NCBI GenBank assembly: GCA_024655905.1
Contig: JANLFP010000001.1
Span: 186,001 to 250,000 of the forward strand
Direction: 5' to 3'
Origin: Tepidanaerobacteraceae bacterium
Lineage (GTDB): Bacteria; Bacillota; Thermosediminibacteria; Thermosediminibacterales; Tepidanaerobacteraceae
Length of the DNA: 64,000 bases
Shown here piece after piece: positions 53,549-63,637 of the stretch. The translations under genes and the position numbers were made by a program. The notes under the pieces were generated by a model. That model made no database searches, was not told the DNA's origin, and saw nothing but the letters and a program-made list of their open reading frames with translations. How positions within the stretch are numbered: position 1 is the stretch's first letter; every line of letters begins with the position of its first letter.

Positions 53549-55609
53549 CTATTTTTGCACAGTCTTCCAAAATTGCCGCTTTATGAGCTCGACAGGATTC
53601 AGAACCGGTATGACGTTCCCTTCCGCGTCAACCGTGACGCCCAGTAAACGGGGGTTTTCTTTCATGTTTTTTGGAAGGCTTTTCAATACAAATTCCTGCT
53701 CCCCAAGAAATTTTTCCACGACGAAGGCAAAATATTTGCCGTCGAGTTTTATAATGAGAACGAAGATTGTATCAAATTCATCCTTATTAGAACATATCTC
53801 ATCTTCAATATCTTTATTTGTTTCTCCAAGCATTAAAGAAACAGGTACAACCGTCGAAATTTTGCCCCTTACTTCCGCATAAGCTTTATCCGCATAATAA
53901 TAAATTTTTTTTGATTCTATTTTTGTAATCTCTTCGATATATTCAACAGGAATCAAATATTTCTGCCCGGATGTCCTGAACAAAATCCCGGAAGCCATAG
54001 TCATTGTTATGGGAAGCTGTAATGAAAAACAGGTAAAAGAATTCTTTTGCGTAGTTATTTTTATGCTTCCCTTTGCCTCATCCACGGTTTTTCGCACTAT
54101 TTCCATGCCGACACCCCTGCCCGAAATTTCGGTGACTGATGCGGCAGTTGAAAATCCGGGCAAAAAAATCAGATTATATATATCCTCATCTCTTTCCATT
54201 TTTTTAATATCGCTTTCATTTATGAGTTTTTTTTCAAGCGCTTTTTTTAAAATCTTTTCCCTGTCAAGGCCCTTTCCGTCGTCAAAAATGTCTATATTTA
54301 TATATCTGCCCTTATTGGATGCAGCAATTTTAACGGTACCCCGGACAGGTTTCCCTTTTATTATTCTTTCCTGCTGATTTTCTATCCCGTGATCCACAGC
54401 ATTTCTTATCAGATGAATAATAGGTTCATTTATTTTCTCTGCAAGGTTTTTGTCTATAACCGCATCTTTACCCTCAATGATAAGTTCTACATCCTTATCC
54501 AATTTTTTTGAAAGATCTCTTACAACCCTATGGTATTTATTGAAAATCGAATCTACGGGGACAAGTCTTGCTTCCATCGCCTCATTTTGAATTTCTTCCG
54601 ATAATCGATAAACCTGATTGCAAAGATTCTTTACTTTTTTAGCTGTTTTCGACAGCTTATATTCATCGTTCAGCTCTTTATAAATTTGATTAAATGCATT
54701 TTTTAACGCTATAAGTTCTCCTGAAAGGCCTATTATAGTGTCTATTTTTTCCGATCTTATTTTTATATACTGAAGTTTCTCATCATGCACCGTTTCGCTG
54801 TTCTTTGTTATGCCGCCGGTATTTTGGAAATTATTTTCAAAACATATCATTCTGCCTTTTTCAATGCACATGCTTATGTTTCCTCTGCATCTATCAATAA
54901 ATGCTCTTAATACCTGTATAAAATCGGCATTTTCTTTTTTAACGGCCCATCTTAAATCTTCACCGCAGATTTTACATCCTTCATATTTTATTGACGAGGC
55001 ATTTTTTATTAACAATCCAATTAGAGTTTCAACTCTTTCAAATACAAATTTTTTAAGAAATCCCTTTTCCAGCCTTAACAGGCACTTTTCAAACAGGGCC
55101 TGTATTTTGACCAGGTTATCAAAAAAATTCTTATCGATTTCACCGTTTAAATAATTATTTTTAATCGGCATTTTGCCTGAGGAGTCGCTTTTAATACCAG
55201 AAATTTTGAATTTAATTCCATTAAAAATTTCATCGTCTATGTCAATCGAAAAACCTTCAGAGGTACCGACTCTTTTTTCGTTTATTTTATTTAATATCTT
55301 TTTTAATTCATCAGTCGCAAAAAGAAGGACATCTACTACCTCAGCGCCTTTTTTAATTTTTTCTTTTCTCAAGTCGTCAAGAATGCCTTCAATCATTTGG
55401 CAAAGTTCGGTAACCGGGTGGAGGCCTTCAATAAATCCCGACAGCCCTTTAAGCGTATGGAGCGGCCTGAACACCTCATTGACGTGCTCTGTGTCAAAAT
55501 GCTCTTCCATTTTGAGTATCTTATCCTCAATGCCGTCAAGATTGTCAAAAGCCTCCAGAAGAAAATCGGTTGCCAATTCAAGTTCTTCTTTTTTTACAAC
55601 TATTTCCAT
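53549..55609 (-). CDS. cheA: Chemotaxis histidine kinase CheA
   Basis: 686 residues. The HPt domain has phospho-acceptor His51 in RPLHTLKGLSGF. Region 110-280 replaces the usual P2 domain and includes YEGCKICGEDLRW and RCRGNISMCIEKGRMIC, an unusual Cys-rich stretch. Then come the dimerisation helices, the HATPase domain (HLIRNAVDHGIE, DDGKGLDR, GRGVGMEIVRKTV) and a C-terminal CheW-like domain. It phosphorylates CheY and CheB. It is the last gene of the operon, read from the c-di-GMP riboswitch at 62.4 kb. Confidence 0.95.
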   Translation of the reverse strand: MEIVVKKEELELATDFLLEAFDNLDGIEDKILKMEEHFDTEHVNEVFRPLHTLKGLSGFIEGLHPVTELCQMIEGILDDLRKEKIKKGAEVVDVLLFATDELKKILNKINEKRVGTSEGFSIDIDDEIFNGIKFKISGIKSDSSGKMPIKNNYLNGEIDKNFFDNLVKIQALFEKCLLRLEKGFLKKFVFERVETLIGLLIKNASSIKYEGCKICGEDLRWAVKKENADFIQVLRAFIDRCRGNISMCIEKGRMICFENNFQNTGGITKNSETVHDEKLQYIKIRSEKIDTIIGLSGELIALKNAFNQIYKELNDEYKLSKTAKKVKNLCNQVYRLSEEIQNEAMEARLVPVDSIFNKYHRVVRDLSKKLDKDVELIIEGKDAVIDKNLAEKINEPIIHLIRNAVDHGIENQQERIIKGKPVRGTVKIAASNKGRYINIDIFDDGKGLDREKILKKALEKKLINESDIKKMERDEDIYNLIFLPGFSTAASVTEISGRGVGMEIVRKTVDEAKGSIKITTQKNSFTCFSLQLPITMTMASGILFRTSGQKYLIPVEYIEEITKIESKKIYYYADKAYAEVRGKISTVVPVSLMLGETNKDIEDEICSNKDEFDTIFVLIIKLDGKYFAFVVEKFLGEQEFVLKSLPKNMKENPRLLGVTVDAEGNVIPVLNPVELIKRQFWKTVQK

Positions 55610-55627
55610 TTACACGCACCACCGATG

Positions 55628-56467
55628 TTACAGCTTTTGATAAACATAATAATTCTTCATTTTCCTGCAGGTGAATGAATCTGTTATCCTCCCTACTGAC
55701 TCCGAATGCCCCAAAAATATAAAACCATTGTACTTTAACTTTTTATGAAAAATTTCCAGCGCTTGTTTTCTGGAAACTTCATCAAAATATATAAGCACAT
55801 TTCTGCAAAAGATAAAGTCGTAAAAGTTATCGGGCACCATTGCATCGCTTTCAAGAATGTCGCCGTGTTTAAAACTTACGAGCATCTTTGAGGCATCGTT
55901 TATTTTGTATTTTTCTTCATCAACGGGTGTAAAATATTTTGATATATATGGACCCGCCACTTGCTTCAGGGATCTGCTTTCATATACTCCCTTTTTGGCA
56001 ATTTCGAGCACCCTCTTGTTTATATCAGTGGCAAGGATGAAAACATCCCATAATACAATATTTTCCAGCATTTCATTAAGAATTATTGCTATCGTGTACG
56101 GCTCCTCACCTGTGGAACAGCCCGCCGACCAGACGTTTATGCTTTTTTCCTTTCTTTTTTTCTTTATTTCGAGTATTTCGGGAAGGCATTCTTCGGCAAA
56201 TGCCTTGAGCTGCTCAAATTCCCTGAAAAAATATGTTTCATTTATGGTGATCTCATCTATAAGTTTTTGAAATTCATTTCCATCATCGCCGTATTTCAAA
56301 AAACTTATATACTCATCCATATCCGAAAGGCCATTTTGTTTTATTCTTTCTTCTATCCTTCTCTTTAAAAAATACACTTTTTTTTCTTCAAAAAATATCC
56401 CGCTCTTTTTGTTTATTAAATCCCTGATTTGTTGAAATTGTCTCGTATTAATATCCAACTGAGCCAC
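55628..56467 (-). CDS. cheR: Chemoreceptor methyltransferase CheR
   Basis: 279 residues from a GTG at 56467; the ribosome-binding site AGAAGG is very close to it, so translation may be weak or coupled. CheR N-terminal helical domain, then a methyltransferase with WSAGCSTGEEPYTIAI (S-adenosylmethionine loop) and FIFCRNVLIYFDE. It methylates receptor glutamates. The receptor in this operon is soluble and has several EE/ASEE candidate sites. Confidence 0.94.
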   Translation of the reverse strand: MAQLDINTRQFQQIRDLINKKSGIFFEEKKVYFLKRRIEERIKQNGLSDMDEYISFLKYGDDGNEFQKLIDEITINETYFFREFEQLKAFAEECLPEILEIKKKRKEKSINVWSAGCSTGEEPYTIAIILNEMLENIVLWDVFILATDINKRVLEIAKKGVYESRSLKQVAGPYISKYFTPVDEEKYKINDASKMLVSFKHGDILESDAMVPDNFYDFIFCRNVLIYFDEVSRKQALEIFHKKLKYNGFIFLGHSESVGRITDSFTCRKMKNYYVYQKL

Positions 56468-56479
56468 AACCTTCTCTTT

Positions 56480-56947
56480 TTATGCAGGCTTATTCCAGAG
56501 TCCAATATCCAACTCCATCACACCGCATTCTGCTTTCATAATCACCGTTTTTGATTTTATCCTGCTTACAATTATTCTCAGGTCTTCCCCTATAATAATC
56601 GTAGGAGGAGTTAACAAAGTATTAATACCGATATTTGATAACTTTATGGAAGCCGTTCCGGCTATCATGTTGCAAAGTTCTCCAAGGGCGCTGATTCCCA
56701 AATTATCGCAAATATTGTTTACTATTCCCATGGTCATAGCCCTTACCATTTGCCCGGCCACCTCATTTTCCATCCCAAGAACAACATTTCCTTTCATATC
56801 CCCTTCAAAGCCGATAACCGCATTCACGGGCATATTGCAGCAATTGGTATTTCGCTCTTCCAGCTTCAACGGTTCCAATTCTTTTAAACCGAGCTGGGTC
56901 AGAACCTCATTAATAGAACTGATAAAAACCGAATAAACAGGTGCCAT
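56480..56947 (-). CDS. cheX: CheX-type chemotaxis phosphatase, copy 1
   Basis: 155 residues from the second of two adjacent ATGs (56947), five bases after GGGGG. CheX/CheC/FliY family with catalytic-type LGELCNMIAGTASIKLS (Glu and Asn as in the E-x2-N motif). CheX dephosphorylates CheY-P. It shares a TGATGG junction with the gene upstream, another family member. Confidence 0.88.
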   Translation of the reverse strand: MAPVYSVFISSINEVLTQLGLKELEPLKLEERNTNCCNMPVNAVIGFEGDMKGNVVLGMENEVAGQMVRAMTMGIVNNICDNLGISALGELCNMIAGTASIKLSNIGINTLLTPPTIIIGEDLRIIVSRIKSKTVIMKAECGVMELDIGLWNKPA

Positions 56948-57408
56948 CATTTCCCCCCTTCCAGTCCGATGTTTGCAAAAAATTTTCCGGCAATTGTTTT
57001 ATAAATTATTTGCTTTGAAGTAATTTTGGGAGAAACAACCTTTAGCCTGCCCGAAAACACTGAAGGCGGTATAAGCCGTAGTTTCGTTTCACTATCATCG
57101 TTGAAATATGTGACCGCATTGCCGGAAATGATATTGTTCAATTCAGCCGCCGTTTCAAGAAGAATTTCTTCATCGATTTCTTCCTGACCAAGCATATTCT
57201 TTGCAAAAAACATGAGCAATTCATTATCATAATACAATATAGCCCGTCCTCTTCTTCCTCCTACAAACCCGACTACGGAAACGGTACCTTCTTCGTTTAT
57301 TTCATCGGTGTTTTCTCTAATATCTTGAACCTCAGGAATAAATTCGATAAAACCAAGAAAAATATCATCTATCGCCCTTATGAAACACCTCGACAATTTG
57401 TCAATCAT
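56947..57408 (-). CDS. CheX-type chemotaxis phosphatase, copy 2
   Basis: 153 residues. A paralogue of the preceding family member with the helix ETAAELNNIISGNAVTYF, which retains Glu and Asn in the ELNN pattern. The rest is divergent (FVGGRRGRAILYYDNELL). Two CheX-like proteins in one operon might act on the free CheY and on a second receiver, or form a heterodimer. It sits one base after cheY. Confidence 0.8.
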   Translation of the reverse strand: MIDKLSRCFIRAIDDIFLGFIEFIPEVQDIRENTDEINEEGTVSVVGFVGGRRGRAILYYDNELLMFFAKNMLGQEEIDEEILLETAAELNNIISGNAVTYFNDDSETKLRLIPPSVFSGRLKVVSPKITSKQIIYKTIAGKFFANIGLEGGK

Positions 57409-57409
57409 C

Positions 57410-57766
57410 TCATACCTCCAGAAACTTTAAAGCTTCGAGTATATCCTGTTTTTTAAAAGGCTTTGTGAGGAAGTTGGCGGCACCATTCTTTTTTGCCTCG
57501 TTTACTATCTCTTCATCGCCCATTGCACTTAAAAAGATTACCGGTATATCTACATTTGACTCGCGCAACCTTTTGAATGCCTCTAACCCTTCCATTACGG
57601 GCATTGTTATATCCATAAAAATTAAATCGGGCTTTGTTTCTTCGATATTATCCAGAACTTCCTGACCGTTTTCCGCCTGAAAACAGACTTCGTGGCCGCT
57701 TTCCTCGACAAACTTTTTTAATAGTCTATGTATCATAGGAGAATCATCTGCTATCATAATCCTCAT
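57410..57766 (-). CDS. cheY: CheY-type response regulator
   Basis: 118 residues, a lone receiver domain. The acidic pocket is Asp7 and Asp8, the phospho-acceptor is Asp52 (LIFMDITMP), with Ser80 and Lys102 (LTKPF). It is the output of the chemosensory pathway, but no flagellar motor genes are near, so its target is open. Five bases separate it from cheB. Confidence 0.92.
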   Translation of the reverse strand: MRIMIADDSPMIHRLLKKFVEESGHEVCFQAENGQEVLDNIEETKPDLIFMDITMPVMEGLEAFKRLRESNVDIPVIFLSAMGDEEIVNEAKKNGAANFLTKPFKKQDILEALKFLEV

Positions 57767-57771
57767 GCTTT

Positions 57772-58833
57772 TTACTCCCTTTCTTCTACAAGTTGTACCA
57801 GTTTATCTGCAATTTCATAGCTTGGAAGGATATAATCCGCCCCTCCCCTTTCAACTGCCTCGCGGGGCATGCCGTAAACGACTGCAGTCTCCTCGGATTC
57901 GGCTATCGTTTTGCCTCCGGCTTTCTTTATCTTAACCATCGCACTGGCCCCATCGTCCCCCATTCCCGTCATCAATACGCCTATGGTGTTTGTGCCGTAA
58001 GCCGAAAGCACCGAATCCATCATCACATCAACCGAAGGCATAAATCGATGTTCCGGTTTTTGAGTGAGCCTTATCTTCGCAGCATTTTCCGTTTTAAATA
58101 TCGTCAGGTGATAACCTCCTTTTCCGACATAGCACACCCCTTTTTCCACATTCATCCCTGCTTCCACTTCCGTGACCTTTATGCTACATGCATTGTTAAG
58201 TCTTTCCGCATACTGTCTGGTAAAAGTCGGCGGCATATGCTGCACCAAAAAAATTGCCGCATTTATTTTTTCAGGAATGAGCGGCAGGACATCCATAATC
58301 GTCTTTGGCCCGCCGGTGGAGATACCGATGGCTATAGCCTTAAAACTGCCCGGCGAATAGATATCGTCTCTTTTTCCGTGATTGAGCATATAAGTATTCT
58401 TTGTATCCCTTTTCCCCCGGGCTGCAATTGTCCTGGATCTGGATGCCGCCGCCGCTTTCACCTTTTCTATGAGTTCTTGCTTAATCTGCTTAATGTTAAT
58501 GGAGACGGTGCCTCCGGGTTTTGGCACAAAATCGAAGGCGCCAAGTTCTATGGCCTCAAAAGTCGTGACGGCACCTTCCTGAGTCAGCGAGGAAAGCATC
58601 AGCACCCTGCCGAGGTTTTCTTCTACTATGTATTGAAGGGCTGTAAGGCCGTCCATTTCGGGCATGTTGACATCCATTGTTATTACATCCGGTTTTAACT
58701 CTCTTGCCTTTTCGATGGCATCCCTGCCGTTTATGGCGAATCCCTCCACTTTAATTTCCGGGTCTTCTTCCAGCATCTGTGTTATCAATTTTCTCATAAG
58801 AGCAGAGTCGTCAACGATGAGCACCCTTATCAA
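57772..58833 (-). CDS. cheB: Protein-glutamate methylesterase CheB
   Basis: 353 residues. The receiver domain has Asp8, Asp9, Asp54 and Lys105 (VPKPGG). A linker with basic residues (about 125-160) leads to the methylesterase domain with catalytic Ser172 (GISTGGP), His199 (VQHMPP) and Asp294 (TGMGDDGA). It removes methyl groups from receptors and deamidates glutamines. It completes the adaptation pair with CheR. Confidence 0.95.
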   Translation of the reverse strand: MIRVLIVDDSALMRKLITQMLEEDPEIKVEGFAINGRDAIEKARELKPDVITMDVNMPEMDGLTALQYIVEENLGRVLMLSSLTQEGAVTTFEAIELGAFDFVPKPGGTVSINIKQIKQELIEKVKAAAASRSRTIAARGKRDTKNTYMLNHGKRDDIYSPGSFKAIAIGISTGGPKTIMDVLPLIPEKINAAIFLVQHMPPTFTRQYAERLNNACSIKVTEVEAGMNVEKGVCYVGKGGYHLTIFKTENAAKIRLTQKPEHRFMPSVDVMMDSVLSAYGTNTIGVLMTGMGDDGASAMVKIKKAGGKTIAESEETAVVYGMPREAVERGGADYILPSYEIADKLVQLVEERE

Positions 58834-58866: not shown

Positions 58867-60276
58867 CTATAATTCAAACAGGACCTTTTCATCAAGTATG
58901 ACCGTTATATTTTCAGTATTCTTTATTATGTATTTGATATATTTTCCTTTTATTCCATTTTCATCTTTTTCTATTTCTTCCAGCATATTCTTTTTTACTC
59001 TTTTCACCTCATACACCTTTTCCGCAATAATTCCGATTTTCGATTTGTCTCTTTCCATAATGATGAGCCTTGTGTTTTCCTGAATATCACAGGAGTTGCC
59101 ATAAAAAATATTTTTGATGTCAATTAGCGTAACAAGCTCTCCTCTTAAATTCACTATCCCCCGAATATACGGCGGTGAGCAGGGTATCGGGGTAATGGTA
59201 TTTATCCTGTTGATTTCTTTAACCGAAGATATTTCAAATCCCAGAATATATCCGTTCACTTCAAATGTTACCACTTGAATCTCATGTTCTTTGTCATCTT
59301 CTCTGCCGGCGGCCTTTTCTATATCCCTATCATTTTTATTATCCATAGCTTTAAGCACATCTCCGGATTCTTTCAGCACCTCTACGGTATCAAGAAGCAT
59401 TATAAGCCTCTCATCCCTCTTTGCAACTTCATATATATATCCGCTCTTTTCCGCAAGTGCGGGAGGAGGGGATACAAATTCTGAAGGAATTCTTAAAACT
59501 TCATTAACCCTATCCACCACGAAGCCGTATAGCCTGTCGTCATTTATAATAATTAAAATTCTTGTATCTTCATCTCTTTCTATTTCTTCCAGATTAAAAA
59601 ATGAACGCAGGCTTATCACAGGCACCAATTCTTCTCTCAAGTTTATCATGCCTTCAATAAACCCGGGAGTGTTCGGAATGGCGGATATGTTTTTATCATA
59701 CCTGATTATTTCTTTGATATTTTTAACTTCAACGCCGAATTCCTGTTTGTCCATTTTAAAAGTAATTATGTGCCTCTCTTTGCCGTCGTTGACAGCACTA
59801 GTTTGTGAAATCATCCTGTCTATTTCATTCACCTCCTGATGATTTTTAAAAACATCACTGGAGAATTTTTTGATGTCGATTATCAACGTTAACTTTCCGT
59901 CTCTATCTTTAACTATGCTGTCTACCATATCTTTTTCATCTTTGAATATACCCGTTTCAAGCCTTTCTTCTGATACTTTTATGACTTCCGTCACTTCATC
60001 CACAATAAATCCAAAAACTCTGTTTTTATCTTCCAGTACAAGCACCCTGCTTTTTTCTTCATTTCGCTCGGCATGTTTCCCGAAAATGCCTGCCAGATTG
60101 TATACGGGTATTATTTTGTCTCTCAAATTGACTATGCCTTCCATATGTTCGCCTGAATCCGGGATTTTCGTTATTTCCGGTATCCTGATAATCTCCCTGA
60201 CATCCTCCACATATATGCCAAAAAACTGTCCTCCGAGCTTGAACTTTAATAAATCAATCAGTCTTTCTTCGGGCAT
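58867..60276 (-). CDS. Triple CheW-domain scaffold protein
   Basis: 469 residues from the ATG at 60276 (GGCGGGTG upstream); a longer in-frame start has no signal. Three CheW domains in tandem, about 1-145, 165-310 and 335-469. Each has a GIVNLR or GMINLR motif (EGIVNLRDKIIPVYNL, EGMINLREELVPVISL, RGIVNLRGELVTLIDI). CheW couples receptors to CheA. Three copies in one chain could cross-link arrays or bind several receptors. No single-domain CheW is present here, so this protein probably does that job. Confidence 0.9.
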   Translation of the reverse strand: MPEERLIDLLKFKLGGQFFGIYVEDVREIIRIPEITKIPDSGEHMEGIVNLRDKIIPVYNLAGIFGKHAERNEEKSRVLVLEDKNRVFGFIVDEVTEVIKVSEERLETGIFKDEKDMVDSIVKDRDGKLTLIIDIKKFSSDVFKNHQEVNEIDRMISQTSAVNDGKERHIITFKMDKQEFGVEVKNIKEIIRYDKNISAIPNTPGFIEGMINLREELVPVISLRSFFNLEEIERDEDTRILIIINDDRLYGFVVDRVNEVLRIPSEFVSPPPALAEKSGYIYEVAKRDERLIMLLDTVEVLKESGDVLKAMDNKNDRDIEKAAGREDDKEHEIQVVTFEVNGYILGFEISSVKEINRINTITPIPCSPPYIRGIVNLRGELVTLIDIKNIFYGNSCDIQENTRLIIMERDKSKIGIIAEKVYEVKRVKKNMLEEIEKDENGIKGKYIKYIIKNTENITVILDEKVLFEL

Positions 60277-60292
60277 CGTTGTCACCCGCCTT

Positions 60293-62215
60293 TTATATTG
60301 ATTGCAGCTCATCTGCCAGAGACGCTATGTCTTCTATCGCCGAAAGAAGTTCCTTCATGCCTTCCGCCTGCTCTTTTGCGGCCTTCTCGGCTTCGGATAC
60401 AGCCGCAAGGGATTGTTCGGCGGCCGCGGCTATATTATCCGTGCCTTTCTTGGCCTGTTCAATGGCCGCCAGAGATTCCTGGGCATTGGTGTTTATTGCT
60501 TCAAGGGATTCTAACATTGTTTCAATGTTCTTTTCCACATTTTCCAGATTTGCCGCGGTCTTTTGGGACTTTTCCACTTCAGCCAGCGCCGAAGCGACTG
60601 CCATTTCTATATCAGCCGATACTTTCGATACCTGAGCCTGAATGTTTCTTACCATATCCTTTATCTTTTCAGCATTTTCGGCGGACTCGTTTGCCAGCAT
60701 TCTTATATCTCCCGCCACCACCGAAAAGCCTCTGCCGTATTCTCCAGCTCGTGCAGCCTCTATGGAGCCGTTTACGGCCAGCATGTTCGTTTGAATAGTA
60801 ACGTTTGAAATCGAGTCGACAATTTTGTCTATCATCCTGATTTTTTCTTCGAGCATCTTTACATTTTCGGATGACTCTATGTTTGATTTGGCAGAATTTT
60901 CGATTCCGGTGATTATATTTGCCATCAACCGCTTATTTTCGTTCATTTCTGCACTGAATTTTTTCTCGATTTCAAGGATGCTTGACGCTTTACTTCTAAT
61001 ATCCGTTGATAATTCCTTTAACTCTTCCCCGATTTCCCTAGCTTTCTGCGTATTTTGCCCCTGGACTTCAGATCCTTTTTTTATCTGCTCTATCGCTGCC
61101 ATAATTTGCTGAGAAGCGGTCGTTGCCTGCTCTATGCTGGTCGAAAGCTCTTCTGAACTTGAAGCCAGTTCTTCCGATGATTTCTTAAAATCCACCGAAT
61201 TCTTCAGCCTTTCGGCAGTATCCGACAGCGCTTGAGCTGCCATATTTACTTCATCAAGAGATTTTACCTGTTCTTCAACCGCTTTTGACGCCTCTTCCGA
61301 CGCTGAAGCGGATTCCTCTGAAGCGGAGGCAATCTGTTCGCTGATTTTTAAAAACTCAAGTGACTCTGCAGCAATCCTTTTACTGTTTTCTTCCATTTCA
61401 TGCATGTGTTTTTTGACAAGAGCGGATTGTTCTATCAATGATCTGAATGCCTTTGCAACGTTTTGGCTCTTCTCCACTTCTTCTTTTGAAGCGGCAACCG
61501 ACCTTTTTACATCCTGCACAACTGCATTCACGCTCTTTTTTATCTCATCTACTACTTCTCTTATGTTTTTTGCCGATCTTTCGGATATCTCCGCCAGATT
61601 CCTCACTTCATCAGCGACCACAGCGAACCCTCTTCCGTGTTCCCCGGCCCTCGCGGCTTCTATTGCAGCGTTTAATGCAAGCAAATTTGTCTGATCTGCT
61701 ATTCTCACCACCGCATTTACTATTTCTCCTATCATTTCCGATTGCTTTTCAAGGTCTGCGATCATCTGTGCTGATTTTTCCGTCTTCTCCGAAGACTTAA
61801 CAACACCTTCGATCAATAAGTCAACATCTCTGACAGCATCGGCGAGGATTTTTTCGAATTCATTTATTGCCTCGACACTGCTATGTATCTTTTCCGCTGC
61901 AATTTTTATTCCTCTGTCAATCTGCGTTATAGCAACTCTCGACTCTTCAGATGCTGAAGAAGATTCTGCAGCGCCTGAAGCTATCTGATCCATGCTTTTG
62001 GAGAGTTCTTCGGCTGCGCTAGAGGCTTCTTCCACTCCCGCTGAAAGCTGTGCGGTAGCTGTCGCTATTCTTTCCGCTATTTGCTGCTGTTTTGCCAGCG
62101 TCCTCGCCCTTGCCCTTTCCTCGGCTTTTTTTCGCGCAAGTTCCCTTTTTCTCTCCATTTCCTCTGTTAGGTCTGTTGAAACGGAACTTTCAGGTTTTAA
62201 CAGCTTTTTATCCAT
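60293..62215 (-). CDS. Soluble double-tip methyl-accepting chemotaxis protein
   Basis: 640 residues from the ATG at 62215 (AGAGGTGG upstream; a GTG at 62224 is inside that site). No membrane segment and no sensor domain; an RK-rich start (about 20-45) leads into coiled coil. It contains two signalling hairpin tips about 300 residues apart. The first is canonical, [20 protein letters not shown] (about 177-196). The second is variant, [20 protein letters not shown] (about 477-496) followed by VVAGD where VVADE is usual. Each tip is flanked by ASEE-rich helices. It looks like an internal duplication of a cytoplasmic receptor. What it senses is unknown. It is the first gene behind the c-di-GMP riboswitch. 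Confidence 0.9.
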
Positions 62216-62289
62216 TTGCCCCACCTCTTAAATTTTAATTTTGTGTTTTGTGTTGAACCATAATAATCAATTTGATGTACAAAATGCAT

Positions 62290-62314
62290 AAAAAAGGGTA
62301 CCCTGCCGGTACCT
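62290..62314 (-). terminator. Terminator downstream of the c-di-GMP riboswitch
   Basis: GGTACC pairs with GGTACC around a 5-base loop and is followed by CTTTTTT on the minus strand, 75 bases before the receptor gene. It is the probable expression platform. Confidence 0.75.
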
Positions 62315-62363: not shown

Positions 62364-62446
62364 GTCCGGCAACCCGGCAGCCATAGCTTTTCGGCCTTAG
62401 GCCCGCGGCTTTGCGTCCCCACCTTTCGATGGGTTTGCTCTTTTCG
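62364..62446 (-). promoter_or_regulatory. c-di-GMP-I (GEMM-I) riboswitch of the chemosensory operon
   Basis: On the minus strand: GCAAACCCATCGAAAGGTGGG with the GAAA tetraloop, GGGACGCAAAGCC, GGGCCTAAGG (tetraloop receptor) and TATGGCTGCCGGGTTGCC. These are all core blocks of the class I c-di-GMP aptamer in order. It should make expression of all eight chemosensory genes depend on c-di-GMP. Whether ligand turns them on or off needs the alternative pairing to be worked out. Confidence 0.93.
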
Positions 62447-62538
62447 GTTTTGTCAAAAATTGATATTTTTAAGATTTATTTGTTATTATACGACACAAAT
62501 TACCATAATCCTTCTTTTTTCGATTTATTTTTATATAA

Positions 62539-62566
62539 TTTTTTTTTTTTTTTTTTTTTTTTTTTT
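62539..62566. repeat. Poly-T tract of 28 bases
   Basis: An uninterrupted run of 28 T on the plus strand, next to the end of a pseudogene and upstream of the riboswitch promoter region. Slippage or sequencing error is possible. Nothing else was recognised in 62447-62584. Confidence 0.95.
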
Positions 62567-62584
62567 GAATTTTATAATATTTGT

Positions 62585-63637
62585 TTAAACAGAGTTACGC
62601 ATTCTCCGCAAAATACTTCCCTTTTCAGGGCTGTAATCTCCGGAGCCGTATGTAAGGGTATGTTTTGCCTGCTGGAGCAGGGCGGACTGTCTGAACTCGC
62701 CCTCCAGATAGTCGGCCCTGGTGATGTTGGCAGCGGGGGAGAAGGTATTCTTTGAAGTCCCGCTGATGATGCCCTTGGAAGCCATAACCTCAACGGGTTT
62801 TCTGGCCCATTCCACACCACCCAGGTCATTGAAGGTCTTATGCACATAGGCTACGGCATAATGACTGAAATGAGTGGTGGTAAAGGTCACGGTCCCGGCG
62901 GCCGGGTCGTAGCGCCCGTTGGGCACCGAGAACACGTTGCCGCTTGAGTCGATGTACCAGATGACGATATGCTCTGGATCAGCCAGCTCCGCTACTGTCG
63001 GCGTATAGGGGATGCTCACCGTCACCGGCGCGTCCGGATTGTTCCATTCGGTTTGCGCTCCGTCCAGGGTCAGGGTTAGCTGGATAATTGGCCGGTCGCC
63101 GACGGCCGCTTTTACTTCCTCCGGCAGGCCGGTTTTGTCGCCCCGGGCGATGGTGATGCCTGCCTGCTTTCCTTCCGTTCCCGGCATTCCCGCCAGCATG
63201 CCGGACGGGATGGTGACGCTGCCCGCGCCGGTGGAGAAGGTCAGCGATCCGCCGCCGGGTGTCGTCAGGCAGGCGGCGGGGATACCAAGCGAATAGCTGC
63301 TGACACCTGGATCTGAAACGCCGTCAAAAGCGGCGGAATCACTGGCGACGGTATCCTCGTTGTCCAGCAGCGCGAGGACGCGCTCCGTCTCGCCCGGGCG
63401 GCAGAGATAGCCGTACACAGTTCTATATTCCCCTCGCGCAAGGTGCCATTCGCCAAGCCGCCGGTAGAGCGCAGCACGTTCTTCTTCATCCTTCTGCTTA
63501 CCCCGGAGGAAATCCAGCAGCACATTGTGGATTTTATAGACCCCCGCTGCCTCGTCGAAGGCAACAAATGCGTTTTCGCGGCGCAGCTTTTTAAGGGTTG
63601 GCTTGTAAACCATCTCATTGATGATGGAAATAGCCAT
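62585..63637 (-). pseudogene. Chimeric fragment: MalT-like LuxR regulator joined to SLH-type surface protein
   Basis: About 350 open codons built from two unrelated parts. Residues 1-100 (LKKLRRENAFVAFDEAAG, YKIHNVLLDFLR, EWHLARGEYRTVYGYL, TERVLALLDNED) match the middle of MalT-type LuxR regulators. From about 105 on, the sequence is a secreted surface protein (GGGSLTFSTGAGSVTIPSG, TTTHFSHYAVAYVH) with one SLH repeat (FNDLGGVEWARKPVEVMASKGIISG) that is cut off after NITRADYL; a 35-residue unrelated tail follows. The first frame continues upstream to the intron relic near 63685. No ribosome-binding site or signal peptide is seen, so it is a recombination product. Confidence 0.75.

Follow-up and report, generated by a model that had tools for sequence, protein, structure and literature searches.

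A double-tip soluble chemoreceptor of an F9-class operon in a Bacillota genome keeps its two signalling tips 300 residues apart

We report that a chemoreceptor gene in a 64,000-nucleotide stretch of a Tepidanaerobacteraceae genome (contig JANLFP010000001.1, positions 186,001 to 250,000; hereafter the window, whose numbering is used throughout) is the dosM gene of an F9-class chemosensory operon. It adjoins a triple-CheW gene, a hallmark of the F9 class, with a set of che genes beyond, and encodes DosM, a kind of receptor already published, from Vibrio cholerae. Sequence comparison suggests that its two hairpins most likely stem from one ancient tandem duplication that preceded the spread of the DosM class, and the distance between the two tips is the same in 109 of 109 intact rows of a collection that covers several phyla, one further draft gene having a single residue more. 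By analogy with V. cholerae, DosM is probably a rigid dimeric rod whose two ends would be inserted into facing baseplates of CheA and CheW3 in a cytoplasmic sandwich array.

The dosM gene and its operon

The operon and its leader comprise the following features:

62365..62449 (-): c-di-GMP-I riboswitch aptamer in the dosM leader (Rfam RF01051, 83.4 bits, E 1.5e-15)
62297..62313 (-): intrinsic-terminator-like hairpin with a T run, lying between the aptamer and dosM (a single one; shuffles average 0.6, weak by itself)
60293..62224 (-): dosM, double-tip soluble MCP, 643 aa from GTG or 640 aa from the ATG at 62215 (Pfam, ORF reading)
58867..60312 (-): cheW3, three CheW domains (Pfam, three stretches), overlapping the dosM 3′ end
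57772..58833 (-): cheB (Pfam)
57410..57766 (-): cheY-like receiver (Pfam)
56947..57408 (-): cheX, first copy (Pfam)
56480..56950 (-): cheX, second copy (Pfam)
55628..56467 (-): cheR (Pfam)
53549..55609 (-): cheA, with Hpt, dimerisation, ATPase and CheW domains (Pfam; P2 hit absent at E 0.001)

The genes follow one another on one strand as dosM, cheW3, cheB, cheY, two cheX, cheR and cheA, with gerA-type spore germination genes beyond. DosM and a triple CheW are given as hallmarks of the F9 class, whose full cluster was counted in 64 of 2781 species (PMC9321776, excerpt); here the triple-CheW protein is encoded by the gene next to dosM, and Pfam places cheA, cheB, cheR and cheY all in the cluster. 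The same source describes F9 receptors as 44H and 98% of DosM homologs as being without a sensor domain (PMC9321776, excerpt), and 24H receptors may signal through F9 (PMC7534058, excerpt). F9 also usually coexists with another chemosensory class and flagella, and the genome indeed carries a second chemotaxis/flagellar cluster (L061) with CheA, CheC, CheD, FliM, a FHIPEP protein and a sigma factor, a single CheW being encoded separately. The CheA of that cluster (L061:10075-12060) has a Pfam P2 hit, which the F9 CheA (53549-55609) does not. An ORF with an S-layer homology domain, 62585-63637 (-), lies just upstream of the F9 operon.

In relatives, dosM adjoins a multi-CheW gene in 10 of 10 cases (the contig of L056 stops after the first CheW domain). 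Among the best 80 named loci, a protein with at least three CheW domains is encoded at dosM in 76, the remaining four being L079 and L096, without room on the 3′ side, and L092 and L142, where two CheW domains are seen (L142 close to the end of its contig). According to a home-made profile, 38 of these 80 loci have four CheW domains beside dosM, not three; none of the 38 belongs to a record titled Bacillota, and Pfam confirms four linked domains in both loci checked (L086 and L104). Tandem cheX genes matching those at 56480-57408 were seen in only one of the ten relatives, L060.

The dosM frame (60293-62224) is uninterrupted, with zero internal stops and 643 residues counted from the GTG. An in-frame ATG at 62215, residue 4 of this count, is preceded by the Shine-Dalgarno-like AGAGGTGG and is a better start than the GTG at 62224; it coincides with the end of the gene in a first-pass annotation made from the DNA alone. 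Pfam finds MCPsignal (PF00015) in two stretches and no further family at E 0.001, and in a whole-genome PF00015 search, which gave 14 matches across 13 receptors, the two stretches scored separately at E 1.7e-35 and 2.2e-26. The top 19-residue hydropathy mean is about 1.0 (none above 1.01), leaving no membrane-like segment, residues 200 to 383 contain zero Gly and zero Pro, and the chain is predicted to be nearly all helical in an AF2 monomer model. The QTN motifs of the tips occupy residues 178-180 and 478-480. The first-pass annotation, which had described a soluble receptor with two tips exactly 300 residues apart and no recognisable sensor domain, is confirmed on each of these points.

A c-di-GMP-I riboswitch in the leader

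As judged from the sequence, a c-di-GMP-I riboswitch and a terminator-like hairpin precede dosM here, and the riboswitch is found in a few other Bacillota as well. The aptamer scores above the RF01051 gathering score of 35. We take model position 11 of the aptamer to be Vc2 G20 (Vc2 numbering); the dosM aptamer has an A at this place, and so does not carry the G of c-di-GMP preference, which 16 of 16 other aptamers read all have. A is the cGAMP-type letter. The Hypr enzymes that make cGAMP change the Asp of the GGDEF-domain motif G[HY]xxGD, and since all eight GGDEF domains found in the genome retain the Asp ending this motif, no cGAMP maker of the Hypr type was found among them. The G20 position has been described as a selectivity factor and not a hard filter (PMC9262584, excerpt), and cGAMP as the ligand is a lead suggested by the aptamer.

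Among the matches listed, 4 of 33 genomes have a riboswitch no more than about 650 bases upstream of dosM, namely the present one and three of a single genus (G121, G231 and G278); in G278 both dosM matches have one, the second match being partial. A riboswitch also precedes dosM at this range in 1 of 30 scanned loci from the best 80 named (L076, Lutispora thermophila), small genes between riboswitch and dosM not being excluded in the counts of G121, G231, G278 and L076. In G018, G072 and G134, again among the matches listed, a riboswitch lies some 1.5 to 1.8 kb upstream. The 4 of 33 genomes and 1 of 30 loci rule out the riboswitch as a general F9 feature. About 28 consecutive T (A on the dosM strand) at 62539-62566, between the S-layer-homology ORF and the riboswitch, form a tract whose length may be variable.

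In this organism a cyclic dinucleotide would probably control the operon by way of the leader riboswitch, and this signal would offer a way to learn when the array is produced. A literature search that covered few subscription papers found nothing joining DosM or F9 arrays to a riboswitch.

An old internal duplication

The two halves of the protein and their junction map as follows:

61205..62104 (-): copy 1 of the duplicated hairpin, about residues 41-340 (self-alignment; tree)
60305..61204 (-): copy 2 of the hairpin, about residues 341-640 (self-alignment; tree; match to PDB 9a69_B)
61175..61237 (-): junction between the copies, residues 330-350 (heptad register shifts once, by one residue; K348 in 108 of 109; model break at 343-345)

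Compared with itself, DosM peaks at offset 300, where 89 of 343 residues are identical (26%); the runner-up among the offsets listed below 500 is 293, with 53 of 350. The self-alignment has a local score of 379; 500 shuffles averaged 92 and never exceeded 145. The hydrophobic phase of the heptads is fairly steady within each copy outside the tips and shifts once, by about 100 degrees or one residue at 330-344, because 300 equals 43 x 7 - 1.

We built a tree from the 22 first hairpins (H1) and 22 second hairpins (H2) of 22 proteins, V. cholerae DosM not among them, together with 26 single-tip hairpins. H1 forms a single clade (support 98/98), as does H2 (100/99), and the two are sisters with respect to the 26 single-tip MCPs (100/95), which were taken from the present genome and its phylum, 18 of them having entered as DosM-like hits, so that a wider sample could alter the sister result. 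Long branches are carried by four receptors of the present genome and by both halves of L162; L003, L011, L013, L014 and L049, whose tip was unreadable, were left out. From the two sister clades it follows that the duplication is old and that the variant second tip is a conserved type. Among the 22 proteins of the tree, the double-tip receptors show common ancestry rather than separate fusions, and a fusion of two unrelated receptors is not favoured, H1 and H2 being sisters against the 26 single-tip MCPs used. Self-alignment and tree together bear out the internal duplication that the first-pass annotation had proposed.

A fixed spacing of 300 residues

The tips are 300 residues apart in 109 of 109 intact rows, which represent 108 distinct genes, own gene included. 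These rows combine 75 intact loci among the best 80 of at least 519 named-genome stretches with 34 rows from scans of the phylum and of gammaproteobacteria. The named-genome scan, which used the tip-2 half as query, confirmed the at least 519 stretches, of which the best 80 loci were retained; as both query and ranking relied on tip 2, relatives with a very different tip 2 could escape, and the distance to tip 1 was unselected. All 75 intact loci have both tips readable and a spacing of 300, four others are split or without an in-frame tip 1 (L075, L077, L079 and L098), and L119 is interrupted by a contig end. Their organisms include Bacillota, Thermodesulfobacteriota, Myxococcota, Acidobacteriota, Verrucomicrobiota, Nitrospirota, Bdellovibrionota and Pseudomonadota (phyla from tree members). 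The gammaproteobacterial DosM proteins have a spacing of 300 in 9 of 9 cases; three gammaproteobacterial rows that the motif missed were read separately and give 300.

In a first set of 11 genes, ten have the spacing of 300 and L027, from a draft genome, has 301 through a one-residue insertion. An alignment of 32 DosM sequences, from which L027 is absent, shows no insertions after residue 27 and no deletions between residues 46 and 641. A smaller alignment had given L031 an offsetting pair of seven-residue gaps after tip 2, with total length unchanged, which is gone in the larger one. Full-length relatives (E below 1e-120) occur in 11 of 61 related genomes, own genome counted; at E 1e-80, 30 of the 299 genomes searched within the phylum have a match, in a few cases split or partial, and so do 9 of 369 genomes of the gammaproteobacterial sample. 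Two or three dosM-like genes are carried by genomes G123, G199, G278 and G293 and by locus L131. Our literature search, covering few subscription papers, found no report of a fixed DosM tip spacing.

The first-pass annotation had named an assembly artefact as one threat to its reading. An assembly or duplication artefact of an ordinary MCP has the exactness of the spacing as the sole point in its favour; the spacing is common to 107 distinct genes of other genomes, the halves at their 26% identity are not near-copies, and each falls into its own clade. We therefore rule the artefact out, its probability being negligible.

A specialised second tip

The two tips were placed by sequence and by conservation across the 109 rows:

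61586..61708 (-): tip 1, canonical
60686..60808 (-): tip 2, conserved variant

By its pattern of conservation, tip 2 reads as an old specialised tip. All 109 rows share G486, E489 and D506 of DosM. At four places where tip 1 reads L, L and A (in 109 rows each) and E (in 107), tip 2 has M in 99, V in 101, G in 109 and D in 109 of the 109 rows, its fixed differences being G at +5 and D at +25, with V at +3 (101/109). The hairpin mostly retains its E, R and G positions. Using what we take to be the E. coli Tsr numbering, the equivalents of E385, R388, E391 and R394 read E in 109, R in 103, E in 104, and R in 61 or K in 48 of the 109 rows. The changed residues noticed at first pass are thus real and fixed, and, being fixed across phyla, they rule out a decayed second tip.

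A proposed dimeric rod between two baseplates

We propose that one 300-residue soluble MCP hairpin was duplicated in tandem and joined end to end at the tip-distal ends. Two DosM chains would pair lengthwise into a coiled-coil rod with one tip per end, the N-terminal and C-terminal arms meeting near the middle so that a bundle could run along the whole length. Counted from R41, where the conserved positions begin, the N-arm reaches tip 1 after about 140 residues, and the C-arm is 162 residues long in 11 of 11; as they add up to about 300, the termini meet at the middle of a straight rod, as the bundle needs. Each end would join receptor trimers beneath a baseplate of CheA and the linked-CheW protein, with each tip presumably binding, and the rod may keep two facing baseplates at a fixed distance in a flat cytoplasmic sandwich, as in V. 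cholerae. Close to the middle, stretches rich in glutamate are likely substrates for methylation by the CheR and demethylation by the CheB of the operon.

The bridging of two arrays, or sandwich array, that the first-pass annotation had suggested is upheld by homology, through the gene partner of dosM here and cryo-ET of V. cholerae DosM, which is seen to span two baseplates (PMC7534058, excerpt). By the same analogy, we infer that the tips lie at opposite ends of DosM. Because it has no sensor domain, DosM would be mainly a scaffold, again as judged from V. cholerae, and the signal would come from other soluble receptors of the same array; the function of F9 arrays is called unknown or poorly understood (PMC7184735, PMC7534058, excerpts). 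As to the source of the signal, it counts against this model that most F9 loci have no second receptor beside dosM: 83 of 90 loci, which vary in length, showed no one-tip MCP, pieces of broken or cut dosM aside. The one-tip MCPs of the other seven loci are soluble in L063, L084, L054, L057 and L058 and have membrane-like segments in L130, L055 and, again, L057. Receptors of the present genome without a membrane-like segment, and thus candidate array partners, are L007, L008, L010, L013 and L014; two are short (280-290 aa), one has a zinc-binding CZB domain, and the C-terminal part of one resembles, by eye, a phosphonate-type binding protein.

Given a helix rise of 1.5 Å per residue, a straight rod with 300 residues between its tips would be expected to measure about 45 nm. 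The F9 baseplates of V. cholerae are reported to lie 35 nm apart (PMC3964821, PMC7184735, PMC7534058, excerpts), a difference that counts against the rod and is a weak point of the model, the spacing of VC1403 lying outside the counted genes. The AF2 monomer model (mean pLDDT 89, pTM 0.63) has helices at 19-342 and 346-642 with a break at 343-345, and contains MCP-like hairpins (2ch7, 3g67). Its structure matches often cover parts of both halves as one bundle (e.g., residues 127-560), and from these ranges the two hairpins of the monomer model seem to lie next to each other; a monomer model cannot form the homodimer and so cannot decide the packing. Pore-forming toxin and TTYH channel structures, which ranked above the MCP rows, were taken as common long-helix bundles.

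These observations could also be accommodated by a chain that folds back at 343-345, so that the two hairpins of a single molecule build the four-helix bundle made elsewhere by two separate receptors, with both tips at one baseplate, and the sandwich is made of two facing layers that overlap in the middle. The break in the model, the matches spanning both halves and the conserved junction motif would suit such a fold, and tips 1 and 2, being specialised, could occupy different places in one dimer; moreover, single-tip layers of E. coli Tar fragments face each other 31 nm apart (PMC3964821, excerpt), and overlapping layers would suit 35 nm better than a 45-nm rod. We nevertheless hold the fold-back to be quite unlikely: a monomer model would be expected to pack its halves anyway, the homodimer being beyond it, the side-by-side packing itself comes from match ranges, Gly and Pro are absent at the junction, and the V. 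cholerae cryo-ET was interpreted as an extended rod linking both baseplates (PMC7534058, excerpt). That DosM is a single-chain pseudo-dimer whose tips have their own places in the receptor trimer, with a sandwich built from two overlapping facing layers, strikes us as quite improbable; if true, it would reconcile the invariant 300-residue unit with the 35-nm array and revise the published rod model.

An alternative of another kind concerns the tips alone, with only tip 1 coupling to the kinase and tip 2 serving as a structural plug in contact with CheW domains or other receptors and without control over CheA. The fixed differences at +5, +25 and +3 would be in keeping with a plug, but the retention of E, R, E and R or K at the Tsr-equivalent positions argues otherwise, and we regard it as possible though unlikely. 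For the extended dimeric rod, which we prefer, the invariant spacing provides a figure that cryo-ET can test in any carrier species.

Comparison with known systems

The soluble receptor of Thermotoga maritima (PDB 3g67, 3g6b) is a soluble hairpin that resembles hairpin 2 of DosM in sequence and the model in fold, and differs in having one tip on a chain of 213 aa. In the predicted structure, copy 2 matches the cytoplasmic domain of Bacillus subtilis McpB in length and fold: DosM 341-643 aligns with the McpB-containing 9a69_B over 303 residues (rmsd 2.4, 25% identity), and DosM 355-643 with 9a65_B over 289 residues (rmsd 1.7). McpB, presumably a 44H receptor, is a single-tip membrane receptor with a sensor domain, unlike DosM.

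The double-layer cytoplasmic arrays of Rhodobacter sphaeroides and of E. coli Tar fragments likewise have two baseplates facing each other across a receptor layer, but are built from single-tip receptors, set end to end in the case of Tar (PMC3964821, excerpt). The closest counterpart is DosM of V. cholerae (VC1403; F9, cluster I), which shares two signalling domains per chain, a cytoplasmic location, a triple-CheW partner and a che cluster (PMC7534058, PMC9321776, excerpts). The member described here, compared with VC1403 by description, differs in belonging to the Bacillota, in the two cheX genes of its operon and in its leader riboswitch.
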